This document shows positions 5,961 through 63,569 of a stretch of DNA of 64,000 nt, in pieces; the first letter of the stretch is position 1, and every line of letters begins with the position of its first letter. A program made the translations under genes and the position numbers. Where the stretch lies: positions 682,001-746,000 of the forward strand of contig WHVD01000026.1 in assembly GCA_015178975.1 (NCBI GenBank), in the 5' to 3' direction. Source of the DNA: Hysterangium stoloniferum (Eukaryota > Basidiomycota > Agaricomycetes > Hysterangiales > Hysterangiaceae). The notes below the pieces were generated by a model. The model was not told the DNA's origin. It saw only the letters and a program-made list of their open reading frames with translations, and searched no databases.

Positions 5961-6227
5961 AGGGTTTATTTTTTATTTTTTATTTTTTTTATTTGGCTAA
6001 GTTCTAATATTTTTGTGGGGGCAAGAAAAAAAAAGGAGAGATGAGGTGGTAGAAGTTGTGTGCATATGTGGGTATGTGGATGTATGTGGGGCTGGCATCT
6101 AAACTGCCAGATGTCTCCACCCTCGCTAAATTGCCAGCCTTCTTTCTGGCTAAGGTGGACCTTTCTACACAAACTGTGGAGTCTTCTATGAAAATGTAGA
6201 CCATCCACCTCAGGGGAGAATAAGACT
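5899..6227. mobile_element. MITE-like repeat with 23-bp inverted ends
   Basis: The two ends, 5899-5922 and 6204-6227, are perfect inverted repeats that begin AGTCTTATTCTCCCCTGAGG. The interior, read on the minus strand, matches the element at 31567-32068 (GTCCACCTTAGCC, AAGAAGGCTGGCA, CCCACATACATCCACATACC, and the TTAGCCAAATAAA end). No coding capacity. The target duplication is unclear. It sits immediately upstream of the Harbinger transposase fragment and may have landed in that gene. Confidence 0.75.
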
Positions 6228-6239
6228 ATAAAAAGGGTT

Positions 6240-6902
6240 GTCAACCCGGATTGTCTTCAAGAATATGTCAAAGCCATTCATAACTTTGGAGCACCCACAT
6301 CTACAATATTCGGCTTCATCGATTGCACAATCTGTCCCACCTGTCAACCAGGTGAATTTCAGGAGCTTGTGTACACTGGCTACAAGAAGTGCCATGGCAT
6401 GAAGTTCCAAGGCATTGTAGCCCCCAACGGACTAATGGTACATCTCAGCAGACCATTTTGTGCCCCTCAAAATGATGTGGGAGTCCTAGCTGAGAGCGGG
6501 CTCCTAGCGATGTTAGAGCAGAAGGTGATCCAACCAGGATTGACTTTAGATGACCCCCCTGAGTGCCGATACTTTCAGATCTATGGAGATTCGGCGTATG
6601 GCACAAGTCCAGTCATGGTGAGCTCATACACTGCAGTTGCACCACTCTCTGAAGAACAGCATGCATGGAACACAGCAATGGGTAAGGTGCACATTTCAGT
6701 GGAGCATGGATTTGGCCTCGTCCTTCAGGACTGGCCATTTCTCAATTCAGTTTCGAAGCAGAAGATATTGGGGACACAGTGTGGAACGATGTATTGCATT
6801 GGTGTCCTATTGTGCAACACCTATGCATGTCTCACTCTGAATCAAACATCTATTTGTTATGGTTGCATGCCACCAACTGTAGATATATATTTTCATGATT
6901 AA
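6240..6902 (+). pseudogene. PIF/Harbinger transposase (DDE_Tnp_4 type), 5'-truncated
   Basis: The frame is open from about 6240 to the stop at 6902 (about 220 residues). It shows the order expected of a Harbinger endonuclease: FGFIDCTI (first Asp), GYKKCHGMKFQGIVAPNG (the common YKKxHxxKFQ region), GDSAYG (second Asp) and HISVEHGFG (Glu). Known family members carry several hundred residues, so the N-terminal part is missing and was probably in upstream exons now lost or split by the MITE. The usual start is therefore absent; a coding start near 6240 is only where the frame opens. Harbinger elements normally encode a second Myb/SANT-like protein, and a candidate lies convergently at 7030-8157. 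The element is a relic. Confidence 0.8.
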
Positions 6903-24303: not shown

Positions 24304-25083
24304 ACACGTGCGTGTGTATTATACACATCGGAGTTTGAAACTGCGTTCTGAGCCGCTCATGCCGATTAATTCCTGGTATGACAAAGCAAGAATGTAATTG
24401 ATATAGAGAATATACTGGTTCGAACGGTTTTATGGCAGTCTTGAACAGAGTAGAAATCCGTCACACTCACCTGAAAATACGGAATACGTTTTTCGCCCAT
24501 CCGATCGTATGCGAATATACGAATGCATCAGACGAACAATTCCAGAATACGTCGAAACCATCTCAATCAGTATCACACGTACCTGATTATCCCCATAGAA
24601 TAACGAGATCTGGGAAATTACGTGAAGGAACTCGGAAGTTCGTGTAAGATGTACTAGAGACTGATTTATATATTTATAATGAAACACACATATAGCATCA
24701 ATTTCATAACAAACCACATAGTAACCACTTTCACCAGAATATAACTGCAAGAGCCCCCGTCGAGCTCTAAACACAATAAGAATCGCTTGAAAGTTCCGTT
24801 GATACAAAGGGAATCAATAGCAACGTAATTAATCTACATGAGATTTTCACAGGTTGGATTTTAAGCATAAGTCGCCGTTAGGTTACCTACAAGGCCTGAT
24901 TAAGTTAATCGAGATTAATTTAGTTCAAAGGCAAATTTTAAGGAGTTTTAAGTGCTCGCACCAACAAACCAGGCATTGGCTAATAGACCTTTTCGCTACT
25001 ATTGACAGCATCAAGATGGTCCTCACTCGGCCTAGAATGTTCCGCCAGGAAGGAGTGAGAGACAAGAAGGCCTTGGTTCAGTT
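24304..25083 (+). other. Displaced FunK1 upstream DNA, then a coding-like frame cut by the TRIM
   Basis: DNA directly right of the MULE should be the former 5' region of the FunK1 gene. Further on, 24432-24647 and 24854-25083 have plus-strand frames. The latter runs LIDLFATIDSIKMVLTRPR to KKALVQ and, if the TRIM and one CAGTT copy are removed in thought, would read on as FALSGRSHPVYTF. The family is unknown, and I cannot tell whether it is expressed. Confidence 0.35.
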
Positions 25084-25211
25084 TGTTAGATTGAGTAATG
25101 CTAGCAGTGCTTCCCAGGGTCAGGTGGTGTAATGGTTAACACCCCTGCTATATATGCAGAAGCCCTGGGTTCAATTCCCAGTCTGGCCATTCATTTTCTA
25201 CACTTTTAACA
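25084..25211 (+). repeat. Left LTR of the TRIM
   Basis: 128 bp, identical to 25367-25494. Contains the tRNA-like unit at 25118-25189 and a TTTT at 25194-25197 that would stop Pol III just after it. Confidence 0.9.
25118..25189 (+). ncRNA. tRNA-like sequence inside the left TRIM LTR
   Basis: 72 nt that fold as a cloverleaf: a 7-bp acceptor stem (GGTCAGG with TCTGGCC), a 4-bp D stem (GTGT with ACAC), a 4-bp anticodon stem (CTGC with GCAG) around loop TATATAT, a 4-nt variable region, and a 5-bp T stem (CTGGG with CCCAG) with loop TTCAATT. The A box (TGGTGTAATGG) and B box (GGTTCAATTCC) fit Pol III promoter consensus. The residue at position 33, a U in nearly all decoding tRNAs, is A here, and position 27 does not pair with 43, so a role in decoding is unlikely. 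I call it a tRNA-derived Pol III unit, not a tRNA gene. Confidence 0.8.
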
Positions 25212-25224
25212 GGTTATGGGCCCC
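25212..25224 (+). other. Primer-binding site of the TRIM (copia type)
   Basis: GGTTATGGGCCCC directly abuts the left LTR. The same 13 bases lie at the corresponding place in the copia element (minus strand, 48074-48062). It is complementary to the anticodon arm of initiator tRNA-Met, which the copia group is known to use through a half-tRNA primer. Confidence 0.8.
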
Positions 25225-25366
25225 GCTGTGTGCTATAGGGCATGGTTCCTGTGTGTAGAGTGAACAGCTATATTTGTGTGTGGTATAGTGGACAAGTCTG
25301 GACAAAAGAGCCAGAGAGGACCTATATCTGCTTATAATATAGTTGAGTGCTAGCATTAAGGGAGTG

Positions 25367-25494
25367 TGTTAGATTGAGTAATGCTAGCAGTGCTTCCCAG
25401 GGTCAGGTGGTGTAATGGTTAACACCCCTGCTATATATGCAGAAGCCCTGGGTTCAATTCCCAGTCTGGCCATTCATTTTCTACACTTTTAACA
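25367..25494 (+). repeat. Right LTR of the TRIM
   Basis: 128 bp, identical to the left LTR. Preceded by the purine-rich AAGGGAG (25358-25364) and followed by the target duplication CAGTT. Confidence 0.9.
25401..25472 (+). ncRNA. tRNA-like sequence inside the right TRIM LTR
   Basis: Exact copy of 25118-25189, with the same A box, B box and T4 terminator. A Pol III transcript from here would end inside the LTR. Confidence 0.8.
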
Positions 25495-25715
25495 CAGTTC
25501 GCGTTGTCCGGACGGAGTCACCCTGTATACACTTTTCGAACAACCCGTTACCAAACAAGAATAGCGAGGATAGGTCACCCGGTTAGCATTTTCGCCTTGC
25601 GGTGAAGAGAATTTCCGTCATTGGCAGGTTGTGCAGAAATTCTGGAAGGGCTGCCCTGTGCAGGAGAAGAATCCATGGCTGACCTTTTCGATTTCGACTG
25701 AGAGGAATCCAGCTT

Positions 25716-28144: not shown

Positions 28145-31100
28145 ATGCCGAAGAACACGATGCCACCTCATGATTTCCGCCCGGAAACACCACCGTCTCG
28201 TCCTACCACGGATCCTACCAAGTGGGGTGCCACCCCCATTTTAAAGAAGGAATCAACATCACAGGTGTATTCTTCCTGGCATGTAGCGAGAGATGAAAGG
28301 ATCACTGCAATGTAGCACAAAATATCTGGGCGAGTAGTCAGACCCGTCAGAGTAGACGATTTCTTGAATGGATATTTCCCTACAGTTCCCAAACCTGTCT
28401 GAAGTGTACCACCAAAACAGGGCAAAAACATAGAACTTTCAGTGCATCTAAAAGCAAGTTTTGTTACGACTGGACAATCCCGCCAGACTCCGGGCACTAA
28501 CCCGTAAGCCCCCACGCACTACAAGCACCAATTGTCTGTTTATAGGATTTCCCACCCAGACTCCATACATCAAGACTGGTTACGTTCGACCTCATTACGA
28601 CACATATCAGTCACTGGACTTCCCCCGGACTCCGTCTCTGTCTATGTCCGTCTTCGTCCCATGCATCAGTCACCGGATCCCGCTCTAATCGAGCCCCGTT
28701 CCATTTTAGTCAAATGACCTGTCATGATTTAGGACTCTGCTCCCGCTCTGTTTCCCATTATGGGTTATGCTTTGTCACGATTCAGACTCCGCTCCATTCC
28801 ATCCCGTTCCTAACACCAAACTTGGTGTTTACTATTCCCATTTTATGTTTTGTTAGTTTCATTTCATCATTACTGGATTTGGTATGTCATGCATTCCATG
28901 GTCTATATAAACTGGCAGATGTTGTACATACAATCCAGTCAGAAAATTAGCTTAGATTCCCCCCAGTAATTTAATAACATTTTCCGCTCTAAAACCTTAC
29001 TTGATTCACATCACTTTCACTAGTCGGAGCCCATGGGCTCCAGCGCATCTATCTCTCTCAACTATCTCAACTCATGACCCACGACCTCTGACTTATGACC
29101 CACGACCCCCAACTTACAACCTACGACCCACGAACCCTGCCCGGGCTCCCCAGGATCCCCGTCTGCCTGTTTGAAATTGGACAACACGATCTAGCGAGGG
29201 TGCAGCCTATAAGCTGAAGCCAAGTCCTACCGGATATCCTGCGGGTTTCTCTCGAAACCCGCCCTGTGTGTGTCTCCTAACAAGTTTGCCATCTACAAGC
29301 CCTGGGTATGTTATTTTGTTGTGCCTTTTGCTTCATTGGAATTTATTTAGGATATAGATTGATTTGGTTGCAAAATTTTGTCCTAACCTTGAACTCGTGG
29401 ACACTCACAACACACCTGCAGTGGATTTCGGAGGGAAACAAGTCAAGCCAGACATACAAATCTATTCTGCCAATTGCAGGCGATCGGGCCTATCAGATAT
29501 GACACAGACAGAAATGATTGTTGAATTTAAATTTGCCCCTGAGGATGACACGTTCAAAGATAATGGACCCGGTTTCTTCAAGCATAGTTCCAATGCTGCG
29601 CATGATACATTGGGTCAGATTACATTATGTGACGGTACACCAAGCTGCACAATTCCGGACACATGTCTTCCTTGTCCTTGTCTTCCCCAAATATGCGAGA
29701 TTCATGTGCTGGGATCACAGTGGGGTCATCATAACGGAAGAAGTCTCTTTTTCAAATCCCTCCTATATCGAGTTCTTCGGGCGGTTCAATCATGCGAAAC
29801 CTGATGTACGTGGTGTCGATACTACAGCCACAGAGTTTCCACACAACCACCCCGTTGCGGCAAAGGCTAAAAGGTCACTTGGTGTCGAGGACGGTGACCG
29901 ACTGTTTCAGGTTAAACTTGATGCAAAAGGTGACACTTATGTATTTTATTGTCCTACGTACATGGCTGTTGGATCCCCCCTTGGCCACTCGACTCATGTT
30001 TTCAAGGCCTACTGCATCGAAACTGGGAAGTTGGTCCTTCTCAAAGATACATGGAGGGTCGTTTCGGCTAGTCAGAGCCCCGAACATATAATATATGAGG
30101 AGCTGAAGAAACAGGGTGTGAGGAATATCTGCACGTGCAAGGAGGGATGTGATGTGTTGGATCAGGTTACAAAGACGCAGGATTCGTCAATGGCAAGACA
30201 CGTTTCTTCGCCATTGAGGTTATTGCGGCACTATCGACTGGTTCTGAATGAAATTGGAAGGTCTCTAACTGATTTTGGGAATACAAAAGAGATGGTGACT
30301 GCAGTGAGAGATGCCATCATATGTAGGTATATATGTCGGTCTCTTAATGGAATTGGGACTGACTCCTTTTCCACAGCCCATGAGGCTGCTTATGACAAGG
30401 CTAAAATTCTTCAGAGATATCAGCTCAGGGTATTTTCTTATCACTGACACTGGTGGTGGATTGTTAATTGACTGGGATCTTTGCAAAAAGCTTCAAGATA
30501 TATATCAAGGACAAGCACACATTGAAAGGACTGTGAGTACCCCCTTACTCTCCGAATGCTATTGGGAAATGTTCTGAACTTTTTTTTGGCATTTTATTAT
30601 CCGTTTCTGTGATTAGGGTACTTGGCAATTCATGGCTGCTCATTTGCTAGTGATTCCCACCCCCGAGGAACAACCTGTGATCCCTGGTGACTTGGAGTCC
30701 TTCCTCTACATCCTTGTCTGGATTGCCTTGAGATATACCAAGCATGGGTTTGTCAAGGGTGTGCTCATTGATATGCTCCATGCCGGTTTTGACCATCACT
30801 ATCTGGATCCTCACGGAGCAGCGAAGGGAGGAGATAGGAAGAAAGTTGAAGTGCAAGCCTCTGACCCCTTCCAAGTTTCTCATTTATTCAATGTCTCATT
30901 GAAGTAGTTGATCAAAACATTGGCAAAAACGATTGCAGTACGATACAGGGAGGTGCCGAATGCAACAGAAATTGCTCAATATAAAGAACTCTTTGAGAAG
31001 CAAGGGTCATCAGATGTCAAATCTGTAGCCCTTGGTAAACCAGTGGATAATAAAATCATTCTTTCTGCACTCCGTGCTGGGGAGTACCTGCATAAGCTAT

Positions 31101-43102: not shown

Positions 43103-43389
43103 TGTTGAGATTATTTGCGCAGTTCTAAATAATACTCTCAGTGAGTGATAAACCTTCGCTATAACATCTATTGTTATCTACCTAAATATAACTGAATTAA
43201 TAGTAAGCAAACTACTAATGTAAGATGAGGGAAATATGCATACCTCTCAGTGAGTGATAAACTTCACTGAGAGGCTACACGATCAGTCTCCAACATATAT
43301 AGTATCCATAAGTGAAGTGCAACTATGCAGTTGCCCAACACTGCATTCCAGCTTACAAATGTAGCTTACATAACACCATTACTTCAACA
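43103..43389 (-). repeat. 3' LTR of the copia fossil
   Basis: 287 bp; contains the repeated CTCAGTGAGTGATAAA motif twice and matches 48075-48363. Confidence 0.9.
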
Positions 43390-43583
43390 CCCTCCCTTAA
43401 GTGGAACATAGTTCGATGAGGTATGAGAGCCTTTCAACCTTCAGTCTGGCTAACAGCTTCGTTAGCATATCGGCAGAGTTATTGTCTGTGGATACATAGT
43501 GGATTGATACCAGCTGCTTATTAGCAACTTTGCAAATAAAGTGGTTTCAAATATTGATGTGCTTGGTGCGTGTGTGGAATTCA

Positions 43584-45332
43584 TCATTTTTTACGATTGA
43601 TATATTGATTATCACAATAGATTGTGATAGGGCAAGTGATTTTGGCTATGAATGCCCAAATCCATAGGGCCTCCTTCATAGCGTGAGTTGCAGCTATATA
43701 TTCCACCTCTATCATTGATAATGCAACAATAGATTGCTTTTTTGAGCTCCATGAGATGGCACCTCCATCTATGGTAGAGATATAGCCCGAGATCAAGTGT
43801 CTATGTTCTTGCAAGCCCCAATCTGCATTGGTAAAACCTGTCACGAATTGAATTTTACTCAATAAAGTTGAATAAACAATTGAAGAATATTCAACAATAT
43901 TGAATAAAGATGCCTCATTCGATGAAGTATTAATTCTTCCTGTTGATAAAGCGTGAGGCAAAGATAGGACATGGAGGCTCAGGAAAAGTTTGACAATTAT
44001 ATAATACAGTAAATAATATAGTATAGTACAGGTTTTCTGACTGACTTCCTTTGTTCCTATCATTGCCCTTATATACTATATATCATTTACCTATGATGAT
44101 AATATGATATCAAAGTGAAATCATCAATGATATTAACCTGAGACAAGTCGAAGATATTGTTGAAGAATAGTCGAGTCAGAAGTCGAGTCAGAAATTGAGT
44201 CGGAATGTTGAAGGAATGTCGAAGAAATATTAAATTGAATATTATCGAAATTTGAGCTTGTACATTTGTGACAGTAAACCCTCGAGTGCATTTCATGAGT
44301 CATTTCGCCTTCCTCTGAATACCAGCCATTAGTCTCTTGTCCCTTTCAGGTATCTGAGGACCCTTTTTACAGCTTCCCAGTGTGGCCGACTGGGGTTTTG
44401 CATAAATTGTGCAAGGAAGGATATTGCAAACGCTATGTTTGGGCATGTACCGAGTGCCGCATACATAAGAGATCCGATCACCTTGCAATATGGTACATTT
44501 CACATTTCTTCGAGCTGATGTGGTGTGCTGGGTGATTGTGAGAGGGAAAGGCGGTGATGGGGGTCAAGGGGGGTTGATAATGGCTTTGCATCCTGTAGGC
44601 CAAATTGTGTGACGATCTTGTCAATATATGAACATTGTGAAAACGATATTGTTCGAGCTGTGTGATCGCATTTGACTTCAATCCCCAGAGCCACTTAAGT
44701 TCACCAAGATCCTTTATCTTGAATTCCTGTTGGATTTTGTTCTTAAATTTCAAGATAATGGCTTTCGAGTTCCCTGCCATGATCATATCATCAACGTCAA
44801 CTGCAACAATTAATGTGGTTTTGTCAGTATACCTATAGAAGACTGCATGTTTGACTTGGCATCAGGTGAATCCAAACTGGAACATGATCCCACAAAGGTG
44901 TTGATACCACTCGTGACCGGCTTGTTTCAATCCATATATCACATGTTTGAGCAGGCACACCATATACTCTTTTCCTGGAACCTCAAGTCCTTTTAGTTGC
45001 CTCATGTAGATTGTTTTGGTAAGAGGTGCATTCAGATATGCAGCATCAACGTCTGTTTATTGAGTTCCCAGTCGTTCTGTGTGGTGATGGTGGTGATAAT
45101 GCGGATAGCGGTCAATTTTGTGGTAGGTGAGAATGTTTCATTGTAATCTATGCCTTCTTGCTGAGAACCCTTGCACTACGAACCTAGACTTGTAAGCCAT
45201 GATCTCACCATTTGGGCCGTGCTTGTATAGCATGATGACTTTGCTCCCTATAACATTCATGCCCTTTTGCAGTTCAACAAGTTTCCATGTGCCATCATCT
45301 ACATGATGCTGCATTTCTTTCTCCAGTGACAT
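43584..45332 (-). pseudogene. Copia reverse transcriptase and RNase H region (fossil)
   Basis: Minus strand pieces include the start of the RT domain (MNVIGSKVIMLYKHGPNGE), its later part (FKIKDLGELKWLWGL) and RNase H (GYISTIDGGAISWSSKKQ, ALSMIEVEYIAATHAMKEA). The order and the motifs are those of Ty1/copia pol. Broken; no repair is attempted. Confidence 0.9.
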
Positions 45333-45353
45333 TTTCCACTGTGGCCAATCACG

Positions 45354-47074
45354 TCAGGACTTCGCTTCTGCAACATTCGCTGGCAGTTCATCACTATTGT
45401 GTATGATTGTTGCCATTGCATTCTCAAACGATGTCGAGATGGCCAGTAAGTCTTCATTTATCTTGCTCTTCAGTTGATTGTTGATTTTCAGCATTGCTGT
45501 GACAGCTGCAACATCTCGTGTTAAGTCTTTCTGAGGTGTTTCGGGGGGTACTGGCATTCCTTTCGGAAATGCTGGACCTTTCAGTCGTCCGTCTATAGAT
45601 CCCTGGCCAGTATTGATGTCACGGACATACACTGATGGTTTCCATGTTCTTTGTCCTTGTCTGGATGTTTCTGTCTCTTCAAAATCTTCGAGCGGGTCAA
45701 TTTGGGCATGCTGGGTGTCATTTGGGATCAGCGGTTGTTGTTGGGGTATAGGTATCTCATTTTGTGTGGTGTTCTGGTTGTCTGAGATCATATTCCCTCC
45801 CTCAGCCTGTACATCATCTATGTAGAATGACAGTGGTTGATTCATTGAATCTGATGTTATGCTCAACTGTAATGTGGCATTTCCCAGGCCAATAAATATG
45901 GTGGCCTTTGCTTTCATCGCTGAATCCGACCCAAAGTCCTTCATCTGCTTTTGCTTCCAATTTCCCGCATTCTTCCTTGAATATTCAAACTTTTGTGCCC
46001 CATTCCAGAACATTTTCCAGATGCGGTTTTTCGTCTTGTGACACTTCGTAGGGGGTACATCCATCCAGGACACTCGTTGAAGTGTGGTTTTTCAGCCAGG
46101 TTGCATGTTTTATGGCTTTGGTCCATAAAAACTTCAGTAAGTTTGTGGCAATTGTCATGGCATGAACATGTTCTAATAACATGCGGTTTAATCACTAAGA
46201 TACACCGTTCGGTTGAGGTGTGTTATGTATGGTCAATCGTCGTTCCATTCCCTGTAATTTTAGGTATTCAGTGAATACATTTGATAAGTATTCACCACCT
46301 CAGTCTGTCTGCAATATTTTTATCTTTCCATTATATTGCATGCTAACCTATGCTTCATATTCTTTATAGGCTTGAAATGTGTCACTTTTCTGTCCTAACA
46401 TGGGCAAGTGATGACCACTGGGTTTTGTCATCTGCATAACTGGCAAAGTATGTTTTTGTGTTGTAGCTTTCAGGGTTTGCAGGACCCCATACATCCAAGT
46501 GGATCTTATCACCAACATTTGCTGCAATTTCACTGGAGTGCTCTTTTGGTATGGGCAGTTGTGTGATTTTGGCCTGTACACATGCTGTACAAAATGTTGG
46601 CTCACTAGATAAGTCCAGATCGATCCTGAGGATATGACCATCGTGAACTGATTTCTTTGCTGCATTGGGTTCGATGTGCCCTAGTCATCGGTGTAGTTTG
46701 TCAATCGACATTTTCTTTGAGGTCACATTTGCAGTACTACGGTAGGTCTTGTGCTCCATTTTGTATAGACCATCATTGGCAAGGGGAATTTCACCAACAA
46801 GTTTACCATCCGGATCCCTGATCATACATCTCCAATTTTTTAGCAGTGCAGAATAGCCCGATTTGTCACAGCAAGTAAGTGAGATTAGTGTGAAAGCTAG
46901 GTCTGGTGAGTACAGCACATTGTTCAATGTCACATTGACCATTGATTTTCCATTTGGCATAGCGACTTTCATGCTCCCAATTCTGGTTGCGTGAAAAACA
47001 GTTTTGTCGGCAGCTTCTATTGGGTGTGGGGTGGTTTCTCTAAATGTGACAAAATGATGGTGGCTAGGGGACAT
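45354..47074 (-). pseudogene. Copia protease and integrase region (fossil)
   Basis: Minus strand pieces show the protease/GAG-pre-integrase part (NVTLNNVLYSPDLAFTLIS, MSIDKLHR), integrase core segments and the linker with PIPQQQPLIPND. It fits copia order between gag and RT. Broken. Confidence 0.85.
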
Positions 47075-47131
47075 ATGGTTCGATGCAGCCGAATCATATA
47101 CGTCTATTTCAGTGTGTCGAAGTGGACTCGT

Positions 47132-48070
47132 TTACCGGGATAGCATGGTTCTGGAGAATGTGGTTGTAAATGTGAAGTCTGTGCTTGACATTGTTGCATT
47201 TGCTTTTGACTTATCTCCTTTCCATTCACATTTCCCTTGTCCTTTCTTCTTAGGTTTCCAGCATTCGGCTGAAATGTGACCCATAATGCCACAATTCCAA
47301 CACTCCACGTTTTCAAAGGATTTCTCTAATTTCTGCATATTTTTAGATTTCCCACAGTGCTTGGATGCTGACATAGCAGTCTCAGAGGCCTTCAGCTTCT
47401 TTTCTTCAATTGTGAGTCTTTCATATTCTTTGATTATAGCTTTGACCACTTTGTTTGGTTCGAGGGGTGATGCAGCAAATTTTGCAGACATTGATATCAT
47501 GCTAATGGCTGGTCGGTAGGTTTTTGGCAGTGATCCAAGTATAATGGTGACTAGATCATCATTGGATAGACTGGCATCTATGCCCTCAAGTTGGGCCTGC
47601 ATTTTCATGAGTTCATCGAGGTGCATTTTGACTGCTGAGTCATCTTCACACTTCATCTCATACATGCGATGTCCGATATCAATTTTAACTGACAGTGCTT
47701 TACCCTCATGTTTGAGGCATAATGCATCCCACACTGCTTTGGCCATCTTTAGCTTCTGAATATCAATCTGAAGACTCGGCTCAATGGACATGAAGATCTG
47801 GGCTTTGATATACACCTCATGTTGTTCAAATTTGTCCTGTCATTGCTCTGCAGCTTCAACCTTGGCCCAATCATTTTCTGTCATAACATGCTTTGCCCCG
47901 AAAGTCGGCAGCAGTGGCAGCTCCCTTGAAGCTCCCTCAAGGTGTCGTTTTAGACCTCTACCAGCACTGAGTACCATCAGTGTCTGGTTCTTCCAGGTAA
48001 CCCAATTTGATCCATCACAGTTGAGTTTCGGGACAACATAACTCTTGAAACTAGGTTCTGTGGGGCCCAT
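47132..48070 (-). pseudogene. Copia gag region (fossil)
   Basis: Minus strand. Starts MGPTEPSFKSYVVPKL right next to the primer-binding site, passes NWVTWKNQTLMVL and AKAVWDALCLKHEGK (the retrotransposon gag domain), and ends with the CCHC knuckle CWNCGIMGHISAEC followed by a basic tail. Broken at least once. Confidence 0.9.
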
Positions 48071-48074
48071 AACC
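48062..48074 (-). other. Primer-binding site of the copia element
   Basis: On the minus strand GGTTATGGGCCCC, directly after the 5' LTR. Same 13 bases as in the TRIM at 25212. Complementary to the anticodon arm of initiator tRNA-Met. Confidence 0.85.
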
Positions 48075-48363
48075 CGTTGAGATTATTTGCACAGTTCTAA
48101 ATAATACTCTCAGTGAGTGATAAACCTTCACTATAACATCTATTGTTATCTACCTAACTATAACTGAATTAATAGTAAGCAAACTACTAATGTAAGATGA
48201 TGGAAATATGCCTACCTCTCAGTGAGTGATAAACCTTCACTGAGAGGCTACACGATCGGTCTCCAACCATATATAGTATCCATAAGTGAAGTGCAACTAT
48301 GCAGTTGCCCAACACTGCATTCCAGCTTACAAATATAGCTTATATAACACCATTACTTCAACA
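48075..48363 (-). repeat. 5' LTR of the copia fossil
   Basis: 289 bp, about 96 percent identical to 43103-43389. Confidence 0.9.
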
Positions 48364-62435: not shown

Positions 62436-63569
62436 TGTTACGACCGGACAATCCCGCTGGACTCTGGGCACTAACCTGTACGCCCCCACGCGCTACAAGC
62501 ACCAATCGTCTGTTTATAGGTTTTCCCGCCCGGACTCCGTTACGTCAAGACTAGTTACGTTTAACCTCAATATGACACATATCAGTCACCGGACTTCCCC
62601 CGGACTCTGTCTCTGTCTATGTCCGTCTTCATCCCACACATCAGTCACCGGACCCCACTTAGAATCCCGTCACCGCTCTAATCGAGCCCCATTCCCATTT
62701 TAGTCAAATGACCTGTCACAATTTAGGACTCTGCTCCCGCTCCATTTCCCATTATGGGTTATGCTTTGTCATGATTCGGACTCCACTCCATTCTGTTCCG
62801 TTCCTAACACCAATTTGGTGTTTACTATTCCCGTTTCATGTTTTGTTAGTTTCGTTTCACCATTACTGGATTTGGTATGTCATTCACTCCATGGTCTATA
62901 TAAACTGGCAGATGTTGTACATACAATCCAGTCAGAAAATTAGCTTAGATTCCCCCCAGTAATCTAATAACATTTTCCGCTCTAAAAACCTTACTTGATT
63001 CACATCGCTTGCACTAGTCGGAGCCCACGGGCTCCGGCGCATCTACCTCTCTCAACCAACTCAACTCACGACCCACAACCCCCGACTTATGACCCACAAC
63101 CCCCGACGTATGACCCACAACCCCCGACTTACGACCCACGACCCCCGACGTACGACCCACGACCCCCGACTTACGACCCACGACCCCCGACTTACGACCC
63201 ACGACCCCCGACTTACAACCCACGACCCCCGACTTACAACCCACGACCCCCGACTTACAACCCACGACCCCCGACTTACAACCCACGACCCCCGACTTAC
63301 AACCCACGACCCCAAATTACGACCCACGACCCCCAACTTACAACCCCCGACCCCCGACTTACAACCCACGACCCCCGACTTACAACCCACGACCCCCGAC
63401 TTACAACCTACAACCCACGAACCCCGCCCGGACTCCCCAGGATCCCCGTCCGTCCATTTGAAATTGGACAACACGATCTAGTGAGGGTGCAGCCTATAAG
63501 CTGAAGCCAAGTCCTACCGGATATCCCGCAGGTTTCTCCGGAAACCCGGCCTGTGTGTGTATCCTAACA
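62436..63569 (+). mobile_element. LTR-A copy, plus orientation, nested, 1134 bp
   Basis: TGTTACGACCGG at the left, TATCCTAACA at the right. It sits inside a minus-oriented LTR-A; target duplication GTGGG (62431-62435) and GCGGG (63570-63574) differ by one C/T change. It is longer than the 28.5-kb copy because the 21-bp repeat is expanded. TATA-like TCTATATAAACTGG near 62894. Looks whole as an LTR; no interior. Confidence 0.9.
63069..63415 (+). repeat. 21-bp minisatellite in the LTR, about 17 units
   Basis: Unit ACCCACGACCCCCGACTTAC plus one base, repeated with small changes. The plus strand is C-rich and G-poor, the minus strand has many GGGGGTCGTGGGT runs. The unit length is divisible by three, so long frames stay open on both strands; these are not genes. 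The copy at 28.5 kb has only about three units. Confidence 0.95.

Follow-up and report, generated by a model that had tools for sequence, protein, structure and literature searches.

A Helenus-type TRIM family of Hysterangium stoloniferum with a tRNA-like unit in each LTR, and its hybrid insertions with other LTR elements including Copia

TRIMs, or miniature LTR elements, whose LTRs derive from tRNA were named Helenus by Kojima (2024, PMC10886601), who reported 113 families from Pucciniales alone. According to the accessible text of that paper, fungal Helenus elements are flanked by 5-bp target-site duplications (TSDs), and most fungal families carry a primer-binding site (PBS) directed against a tRNA anticodon loop, mainly that of initiator tRNA-Met (iMet). 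The same text considers that these elements are probably moved by Copia retrotransposons, the fungal partner being assigned from PBS and interior similarity, and that they are expected to be transcribed by Pol III, which was not validated there. A search of the literature from 2024 on for Helenus together with tRNA and LTR retrotransposon returned Kojima 2024 only, and the retrieved text of a paper dealing with Hysterangium stoloniferum and transposable elements (PMC7550596) does not mention Helenus.

Other described systems share some of these features. Cassandra (PMC7215508) is likewise a TRIM that bears a Pol III gene in its LTRs and forms tandem LTR-interior-LTR arrays, but it is found in plants, its gene is a 5S rRNA and not a tRNA-like unit, and its autonomous partners are called unknown in the retrieved part of the paper. 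Some complex elements of Triticeae (Sabot and Schulman 2007, PMC1950507) comprise three LTRs within one 5-bp TSD, an arrangement attributed in that paper to co-packaged RNAs; there, similar elements switch within R, whereas the hybrids described below join unalike LTRs at the PBS. Dasheng/RIRE2 of rice, as cited in PMC5473765, associates a non-autonomous element with an autonomous partner and includes some chimeric copies, but the relevant extract mentions no Pol III unit. Template switching between co-packaged RNAs and chimeric pairs of non-autonomous and autonomous elements are not new ideas (extracts of PMC1950507 and PMC5473765).

The window, i.e., the whole stretch of 64,000 nucleotides of H. 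stoloniferum DNA analysed here, contains at positions 25084–25494 (plus strand) a 411-bp TRIM that consists of two identical 128-bp LTRs with TG...CA ends (25084–25211 and 25367–25494) separated by a non-coding interior of 155 bp (25212–25366), the whole being flanked by the TSD cagtt on the left (25079–25083) and on the right (25495–25499). The interior begins with the PBS GGTTATGGGCCCCGC (25212–25226), of the half-tRNA primer type, and ends with the polypurine tract AAGGGAGTG (25358–25366). It is too short for a notable ORF, and the ORF scan of the window found none of at least 150 aa overlapping the element. A 72-nt tRNA-like cloverleaf is located in the 5′ LTR (25118–25189) and in the 3′ LTR (25401–25472). 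In the 5′ LTR, the cloverleaf includes an A-box-like TGGTGTAATGG (25125–25135) and a B-box-like GGTTCAATTCC (25168–25178), both recognised by eye, and is followed by a first T4 run (25194–25197), which is a candidate weak Pol III stop, and by a second one (25204–25207), 4 nt upstream of the LTR end. The first-pass annotation, made from the letters alone, had described the same length, identical LTRs, TSD, PBS, purine tract and lack of coding capacity, and all of these are found in the sequence.

With its two LTRs, its short non-coding interior and its length of 411 bp (<1000 bp), this element belongs to an apparently new Helenus family, hereafter F1, in a new host order, the Hysterangiales. 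In the accessible text of PMC10886601, Helenus elements are likewise below about 1 kb, with a tRNA-like sequence including A and B boxes in each LTR, a 5-bp TSD in fungi, a PBS to the iMet anticodon loop in most fungal families, a Copia-like PBS region and several families per genome. F1 differs from them by its host (those of that text being Pucciniales, Agaricus, Coprinopsis and Amylostereum), by folding into a cloverleaf whose pairs survive shared changes and by its Copia hybrid insertions, which were not found in that text. The possibility raised in the first-pass annotation that the tRNA-like LTR is a parallel invention is rejected, since Helenus, with the same type of LTRs, was already in print in 2024 (PMC10886601, as far as its retrieved text goes).

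The PBS GGTTATGGGCCCCGC is the perfect complement (15/15) of GCGGGGCCCATAACC, a part of the anticodon arm, including the anticodon loop, of all three initiator tRNA-Met genes found; these genes were recovered with a second search pattern, a first one having given 0 matches. The tetranucleotide AACA immediately before this PBS, reduced to its 13-nt core, occurs at 214 further places in the genome, against 0 for the control; these places were examined among the 100 matches listed, and 12 stretches were read. In BLAST comparisons, the sequence that F1 was seen to share with the other elements is limited to the PBS and a few LTR-end bases (17–22 nt). Within the window, a decayed Copia (43103–48363, minus strand; gag PF14223, CCHC zinc knuckle) that lies 18 kb from the TRIM shares 13 nt of its PBS, the core being at 48062–48074, and carries ttaagggagggtg at the place that matches the polypurine tract of the TRIM; both PBS core and purine tract are thus common to the two elements. 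The LTRs of this Copia (287 and 289 bp) are not flanked by a matching TSD (GAGAC vs CTTCC). The window also harbours ORFs of FunK1-type fungal kinases (PF17667; 17875–19533, minus strand, and 29518–30447, plus strand) and of DDE transposases (6192–6902, plus strand, PF13359; 39772–40419, minus strand, PF13358 with a Tc3-like HTH), as well as a 21-bp tandem repeat (63022–63459; 16 overlapping registers) that is open in frame and would encode PPTYDPR-like units. The best named matches of one of the kinase ORFs are proteins of H. stoloniferum (78% and 62%), a false truffle.

When compared with its own genome (111 Mb, 554 contigs), the 411-bp sequence gave 45 matches, at least 43 of them dispersed full-length copies (spanning positions 1–411), a lower bound obtained by scoring the best 40 of 513 first-look candidates. 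The first-pass annotation had proposed this search and had named, among the outcomes that would refute its reading, a simple tandem duplication lacking matching copies elsewhere; the window element is not a lone tandem duplication, since the query matches 45 places. The LTR-PBS junction matches 84 places with at most 2 mismatches (reversed control pattern: 0), not all of which are F1: the junctions of C257 and C334:1138440, both read, belong to other elements, that of C154 has the same letters as C257, and several others are truncated copies. The LTR start gave 296 matches with at most 3 mismatches (reversed control pattern: 1), whose places are known among the 100 matches listed. A perfect 5-bp TSD flanks 25 of the 30 F1 loci that were fetched, or 26 of 28 once L009 is merged with L020 (common flanks) and the tandem L021 with L022 (matching outer ends). 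The two LTRs show no difference in 27/30 loci and a single one in 2/30, while in L020 a 1-bp deletion put the two LTRs out of register in the comparison. The F1 family is therefore young, as had been proposed for the window copy.

Closely spaced junctions on the same strand were found at five loci, with a spacing of 283–284 bp on C16, C66, C510 and C517 and of 220 bp on C520. C517, the sole one of these loci with outer ends read, has the structure LTR-int-LTR-int-LTR with one TSD. At another locus (L018, C141:37301–40711), an F1 copy flanked by the TSD GCAGG has landed in the tRNA-like unit of a second F1 copy, which is inverted, a single case that is too little for a claim of targeting. It had also been suggested that the tRNA-like unit may guide where the element lands; targeting to tRNA genes finds no echo in the genome, as none of the 84 junction matches lies within 3 kb of the 65 tRNA matches listed, the nearest being 3,096 bp away. 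Many clustered intron-bearing tRNA-Lys(CTT)-like genes of 94–95 nt were noticed on C112 (around 0.91–1.22 Mb), C68, C526, C98 and C410 (L036–L060); some are spaced by about 370–430 bp, and they may represent either tRNA genes in tandem arrays or a further repeat that bears a tRNA.

The tRNA-like unit is called as a tRNA in both LTRs by ARAGORN (tRNA-Ile TAT) and by Rfam (RF00005, 49.2 bits for a gathering score of 29), at 25118–25189 and 25401–25472; running a tRNA finder had been proposed as a check in the first-pass annotation. At the gathering threshold, Rfam gives only RF00005 in the F1 LTR and no 5S rRNA. The minimum-free-energy fold of the isolated 72-nt unit is the cloverleaf (−27.3 kcal/mol, z −2.36, 1 of 200 shuffles being as good), in which 20 of the 21 stem pairs are formed, the exception being C27-A43; the best fold of the whole 128-nt LTR is not a cloverleaf (z −1.37). 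The A box, B box and 72-nt cloverleaf that had been placed in each LTR are thus recovered, the boxes as A- and B-like sequences by eye and the cloverleaf by ARAGORN, Rfam and folding. The anticodon loop, TATATAT, lacks U33 and departs from that of a standard functional tRNA, so decoding is unlikely, in agreement with the initial opinion.

A second Helenus family, F2, was found among the listed matches to AACA followed by the PBS. Its LTR is 252 bp and its interior 67 bp, and its tRNA-like unit is called tRNA-Tyr(ATA) or left without a defined type. It also forms tandem arrays, such as a three-LTR tandem with CCATA on both flanks (C182). The part that can be aligned between F1 and F2 (80% over 100 bp) is limited to the tRNA-like unit, LTR tail and PBS. 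The F2 unit taken alone gives no stable cloverleaf (z −0.30). The F1 unit shares with it 55 identities over 72 nt (score 26.0), more than with the best of 20 sampled host tRNAs (Met, 18.5), and the F2 unit is equally near to the host tRNA-Cys (score 26.4) in this sample of 20, which leaves out many isotypes. A tRNA-Gln-type pattern, taken as a possible source tRNA, has 0 matches in the genome. These comparisons do not single out a source tRNA, so that stem positions at which F1 and F2 differ on both sides of a pair are not evidence of compensatory change.

Among F1 copies, diversity was calculated from 62 LTRs of 52 loci, after removal of eight duplicate loci and of LTRs lacking a near-full-length match; this set includes 38 distinct LTRs and 27 distinct interiors. 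Variable sites amount to 33/72 in the tRNA-like unit and 56/155 in the interior, and pi is 0.060 in the tRNA-like part vs 0.055 in the interior. The first-pass annotation had stated that a cloverleaf mutating as fast as the rest would count against it. Raw pi does go against it, but this equality is not taken as a refutation because post-insertion differences are expected to be neutral, and changes shared between loci tell another story. Those common to at least two of the 52 loci keep a stem pair in 7 cases, make one in 1 and break none (2.14 broken under the null, P=0.039), whereas private changes break a pair in 11 cases and keep one in 2 (9.83 broken under the null); the difference between shared and private changes is significant (Fisher P=2e-4), for few events that are mostly C-to-T (G-C to G-U) and with a null that preserved the type of change. 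By region, the tRNA-like part and tail show no significant deficit of shared changes relative to the first 34 nt of the LTR (Fisher P=0.43). As shared stem changes break no pair and private ones mostly do, these data suggest that the F1 lineages that spread keep the cloverleaf. Together, the pattern of shared substitutions and the stretch over which F1 and F2 align point to a constraint on the tRNA-like unit.

The T4 stop that had been attributed to each LTR proved more complicated. At least one run of four or more T is indeed present in each of the 62 LTRs, but there are two such runs per LTR and either can be broken: among 29 other copies, T113A interrupts the first in 14 and T124C the second in 2. 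In the last 26 nt of the F1 LTRs, the longest T run is 4 in 60/62 and 5 in 2/62. For comparison, the T run found within 40 nt of 40 host tRNA calls is at least 5 in 34, 4 in 5 and absent in 1, at least 5 being found in 13/17 once the calls from Lys/Leu arrays are set aside. This suggests a tuned weak T4 stop that would allow Pol III to read through the 5′ LTR, which would suit an element needing a full-length RNA; it is put forward as a suggestion, since the first T4 is missing from half of the copies and T4 also occurs at some host tRNA genes.

Alternatively, Pol II could transcribe the element, using either host promoters or the short 5′ part of the LTR, and the tRNA-like unit would then be a passenger, an RNA structure acting in packaging, dimerisation or strand transfer, or a TFIIIC/insulator site. 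The shared substitutions lend some weight to this rather unlikely alternative, as they keep cloverleaf pairs, including those of the acceptor stem that an internal promoter does not need, and hence favour a role of the RNA shape; the loss of one or the other T4 run in some copies goes in the same direction. However, the LTR has sequences resembling A and B boxes and at least one T4, the F1 unit has only 34 nt of LTR upstream of it, with no TATA-like run seen there, and the similarity between F1 and F2 is confined to the unit, tail and PBS. Transcription by Pol III thus appears preferable.

The movement of these elements can be approached through hybrid insertions, in which the LTR of one element directly precedes the interior of another. 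The loci were chosen by junction type, so the hybrid counts given here are not rates. Both ends were read for 14 hybrids, nine of which are flanked by a perfect 5-bp TSD (about 0.01 would be expected by chance), and all hybrids counted are joined at LTR|PBS. The truncated unit at the left of L096 was excluded from the TSD assessment and C35:906611 was dropped; the interiors on C124, C58, C533, C135, C259, C35 and C14 were read in part, and that on C2 fully, in adjoining pieces. Two further F1 hybrids, C24 (L116) and C290 (L118), are outside the 14, their outer ends not being resolved. C140 (L122) and C527 (L123), whose 5′ sequences are not recognised LTRs, were excluded from the hybrids. At L122 (C140:64700–65700), an F1 interior follows directly on the last part of a Copia pol coding sequence, in place of an LTR, with the joint TTTAACA|PBS.

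The F1 hybrid C124 has the structure LTR_D–int_D–LTR_D–F1 int–F1 LTR and the TSD ACAAT. In C533 (TSD TGAGA), the structure is LTR_E–F1 int–F1 LTR–Copia E int–LTR_E, in which the Copia E interior encodes RVT_2; C58 (TSD AATAC) and C135 (TSD GCCAT) have the same layout. The first bases past the PBS of the C533 Copia E interior nearly match those of the window Copia at 43–48 kb, which is a relative of element E, although LTR_E and the LTR of this Copia are alike over their last 49 nt only; the 3′ LTR of C533, partly read, contains an extra stretch of about 80 bp. Among F1 partners, a reverse transcriptase is shown for E only. Slices of the partners D and Y have no pol similarity, the interior of partner C is 1.2 kb by coordinates, and these three may be non-autonomous too, which would imply that co-packaging also takes place among non-autonomous elements.

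F2 is associated with another partner, Copia B, whose gag-pol frame on C2 is uninterrupted in the pieces that were read (PF22936, PF13976, PF00665, PF25597, PF07727). The F2 interior is preceded by LTR_B, and not by its own LTR, in at least 10 of 42 junction matches, all 10 having been read; reciprocally, an F2-type LTR end precedes the Copia B interior in 5 of 58 matches, of which four were read and confirmed. Simple LTR_B–F2 int–F2 LTR units have a TSD in three of six cases: L074 (TTTAT, provided that the last LTR bases are TA for CA), L096 (CTGTC) and L099 (AAAGA), as opposed to L097, L098 and L101. Larger F2 composites have one on C2 (TTTTT, of low complexity) and C259 (ATCAC), and no TSD was found for the F2 composite on C35 or for the reciprocal F2 LTR–int_B–LTR_B on C14, both ends of which were read.

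These hybrid insertions point to co-packaging and PBS-mediated strand transfer. They could also have arisen by DNA recombination after integration, for example by insertion of a one-LTR TRIM circle into Copia copies at the PBS, in which case they would have little bearing on co-packaging. Units of the X LTR–TRIM interior–TRIM LTR–X interior–X LTR type have the ends of X, so that their TSD could date from the original insertion of X, and five of the 14 hybrids have no TSD. In contrast, units with unlike ends that carry one perfect TSD (L074, L096, L099 and C124) are hard to make by later recombination, a common stretch of 17–22 nt offers little for homologous recombination to act on, and all counted hybrids break at LTR|PBS, all of which makes such an origin improbable. 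Finally, although ARAGORN and Rfam both call a tRNA, the idea that a cellular tRNA gene pair or a duplicated tRNA pseudogene was taken by chance for an LTR element is refuted by the dispersed copies with TSDs, PBS, polypurine tract and identical LTRs and by the absence of U33, and has virtually no chance of being right.

The most credible reading, in which we have good confidence, is that F1 is a Helenus-type TRIM transcribed by Pol III, packaged by Copia, primed by half of tRNA-iMet and able to form hybrids through its PBS, the PBS identity, the TSDs and the hybrids being observed. Its lifecycle could be drawn as follows. Pol III would start, most likely, close to where the tRNA-like unit of the 5′ LTR begins, would often pass the short T4 runs of this LTR and would stop at their counterparts in the 3′ LTR, yielding an RNA with a tRNA-like stretch at both ends that would act as the R region. 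This RNA would be packed into particles made by Copia elements, as the PBS identity, TSDs and hybrids suggest; reverse transcription would be primed at the common PBS by the 5′ half of initiator tRNA-Met, and integration, presumably by Copia enzymes, would generate the 5-bp TSD. Since many LTR elements of the genome have this PBS, plus-strand DNA whose synthesis has reached the primer-derived PBS could anneal to the PBS complement on the minus strand of another element. One such transfer would give X LTR–TRIM interior–TRIM LTR, a second one would give X LTR–TRIM interior–TRIM LTR–X interior–X LTR, and tandem insertions could be produced in the same way. A broader proposal, quite possibly correct and still tentative, is that a single half-tRNA-iMet PBS makes many unrelated LTR elements one exchange pool, in which Helenus travels in the particles of several Copia families, hybrids and tandems form in one step, and the cloverleaf is selected as an RNA shape and not as an A/B-box promoter alone.

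Judged from genomic sequences, the hybrid insertions would be strong indirect evidence that F1 is mobilised by Copia, and unusually direct evidence, for a genome, of who copies it; as far as literature searches show, such evidence is new for a TRIM that bears a Pol III unit. As to which elements move TRIMs that carry Pol III genes, hybrids with single TSDs name concrete partners, and PBS-mediated strand transfer between co-packaged RNAs is proposed as a testable mechanism. With two Helenus families whose partners seen so far are different, the genome of H. stoloniferum offers material in which to ask how a full-length template could be produced from a Pol III promoter with short T runs.
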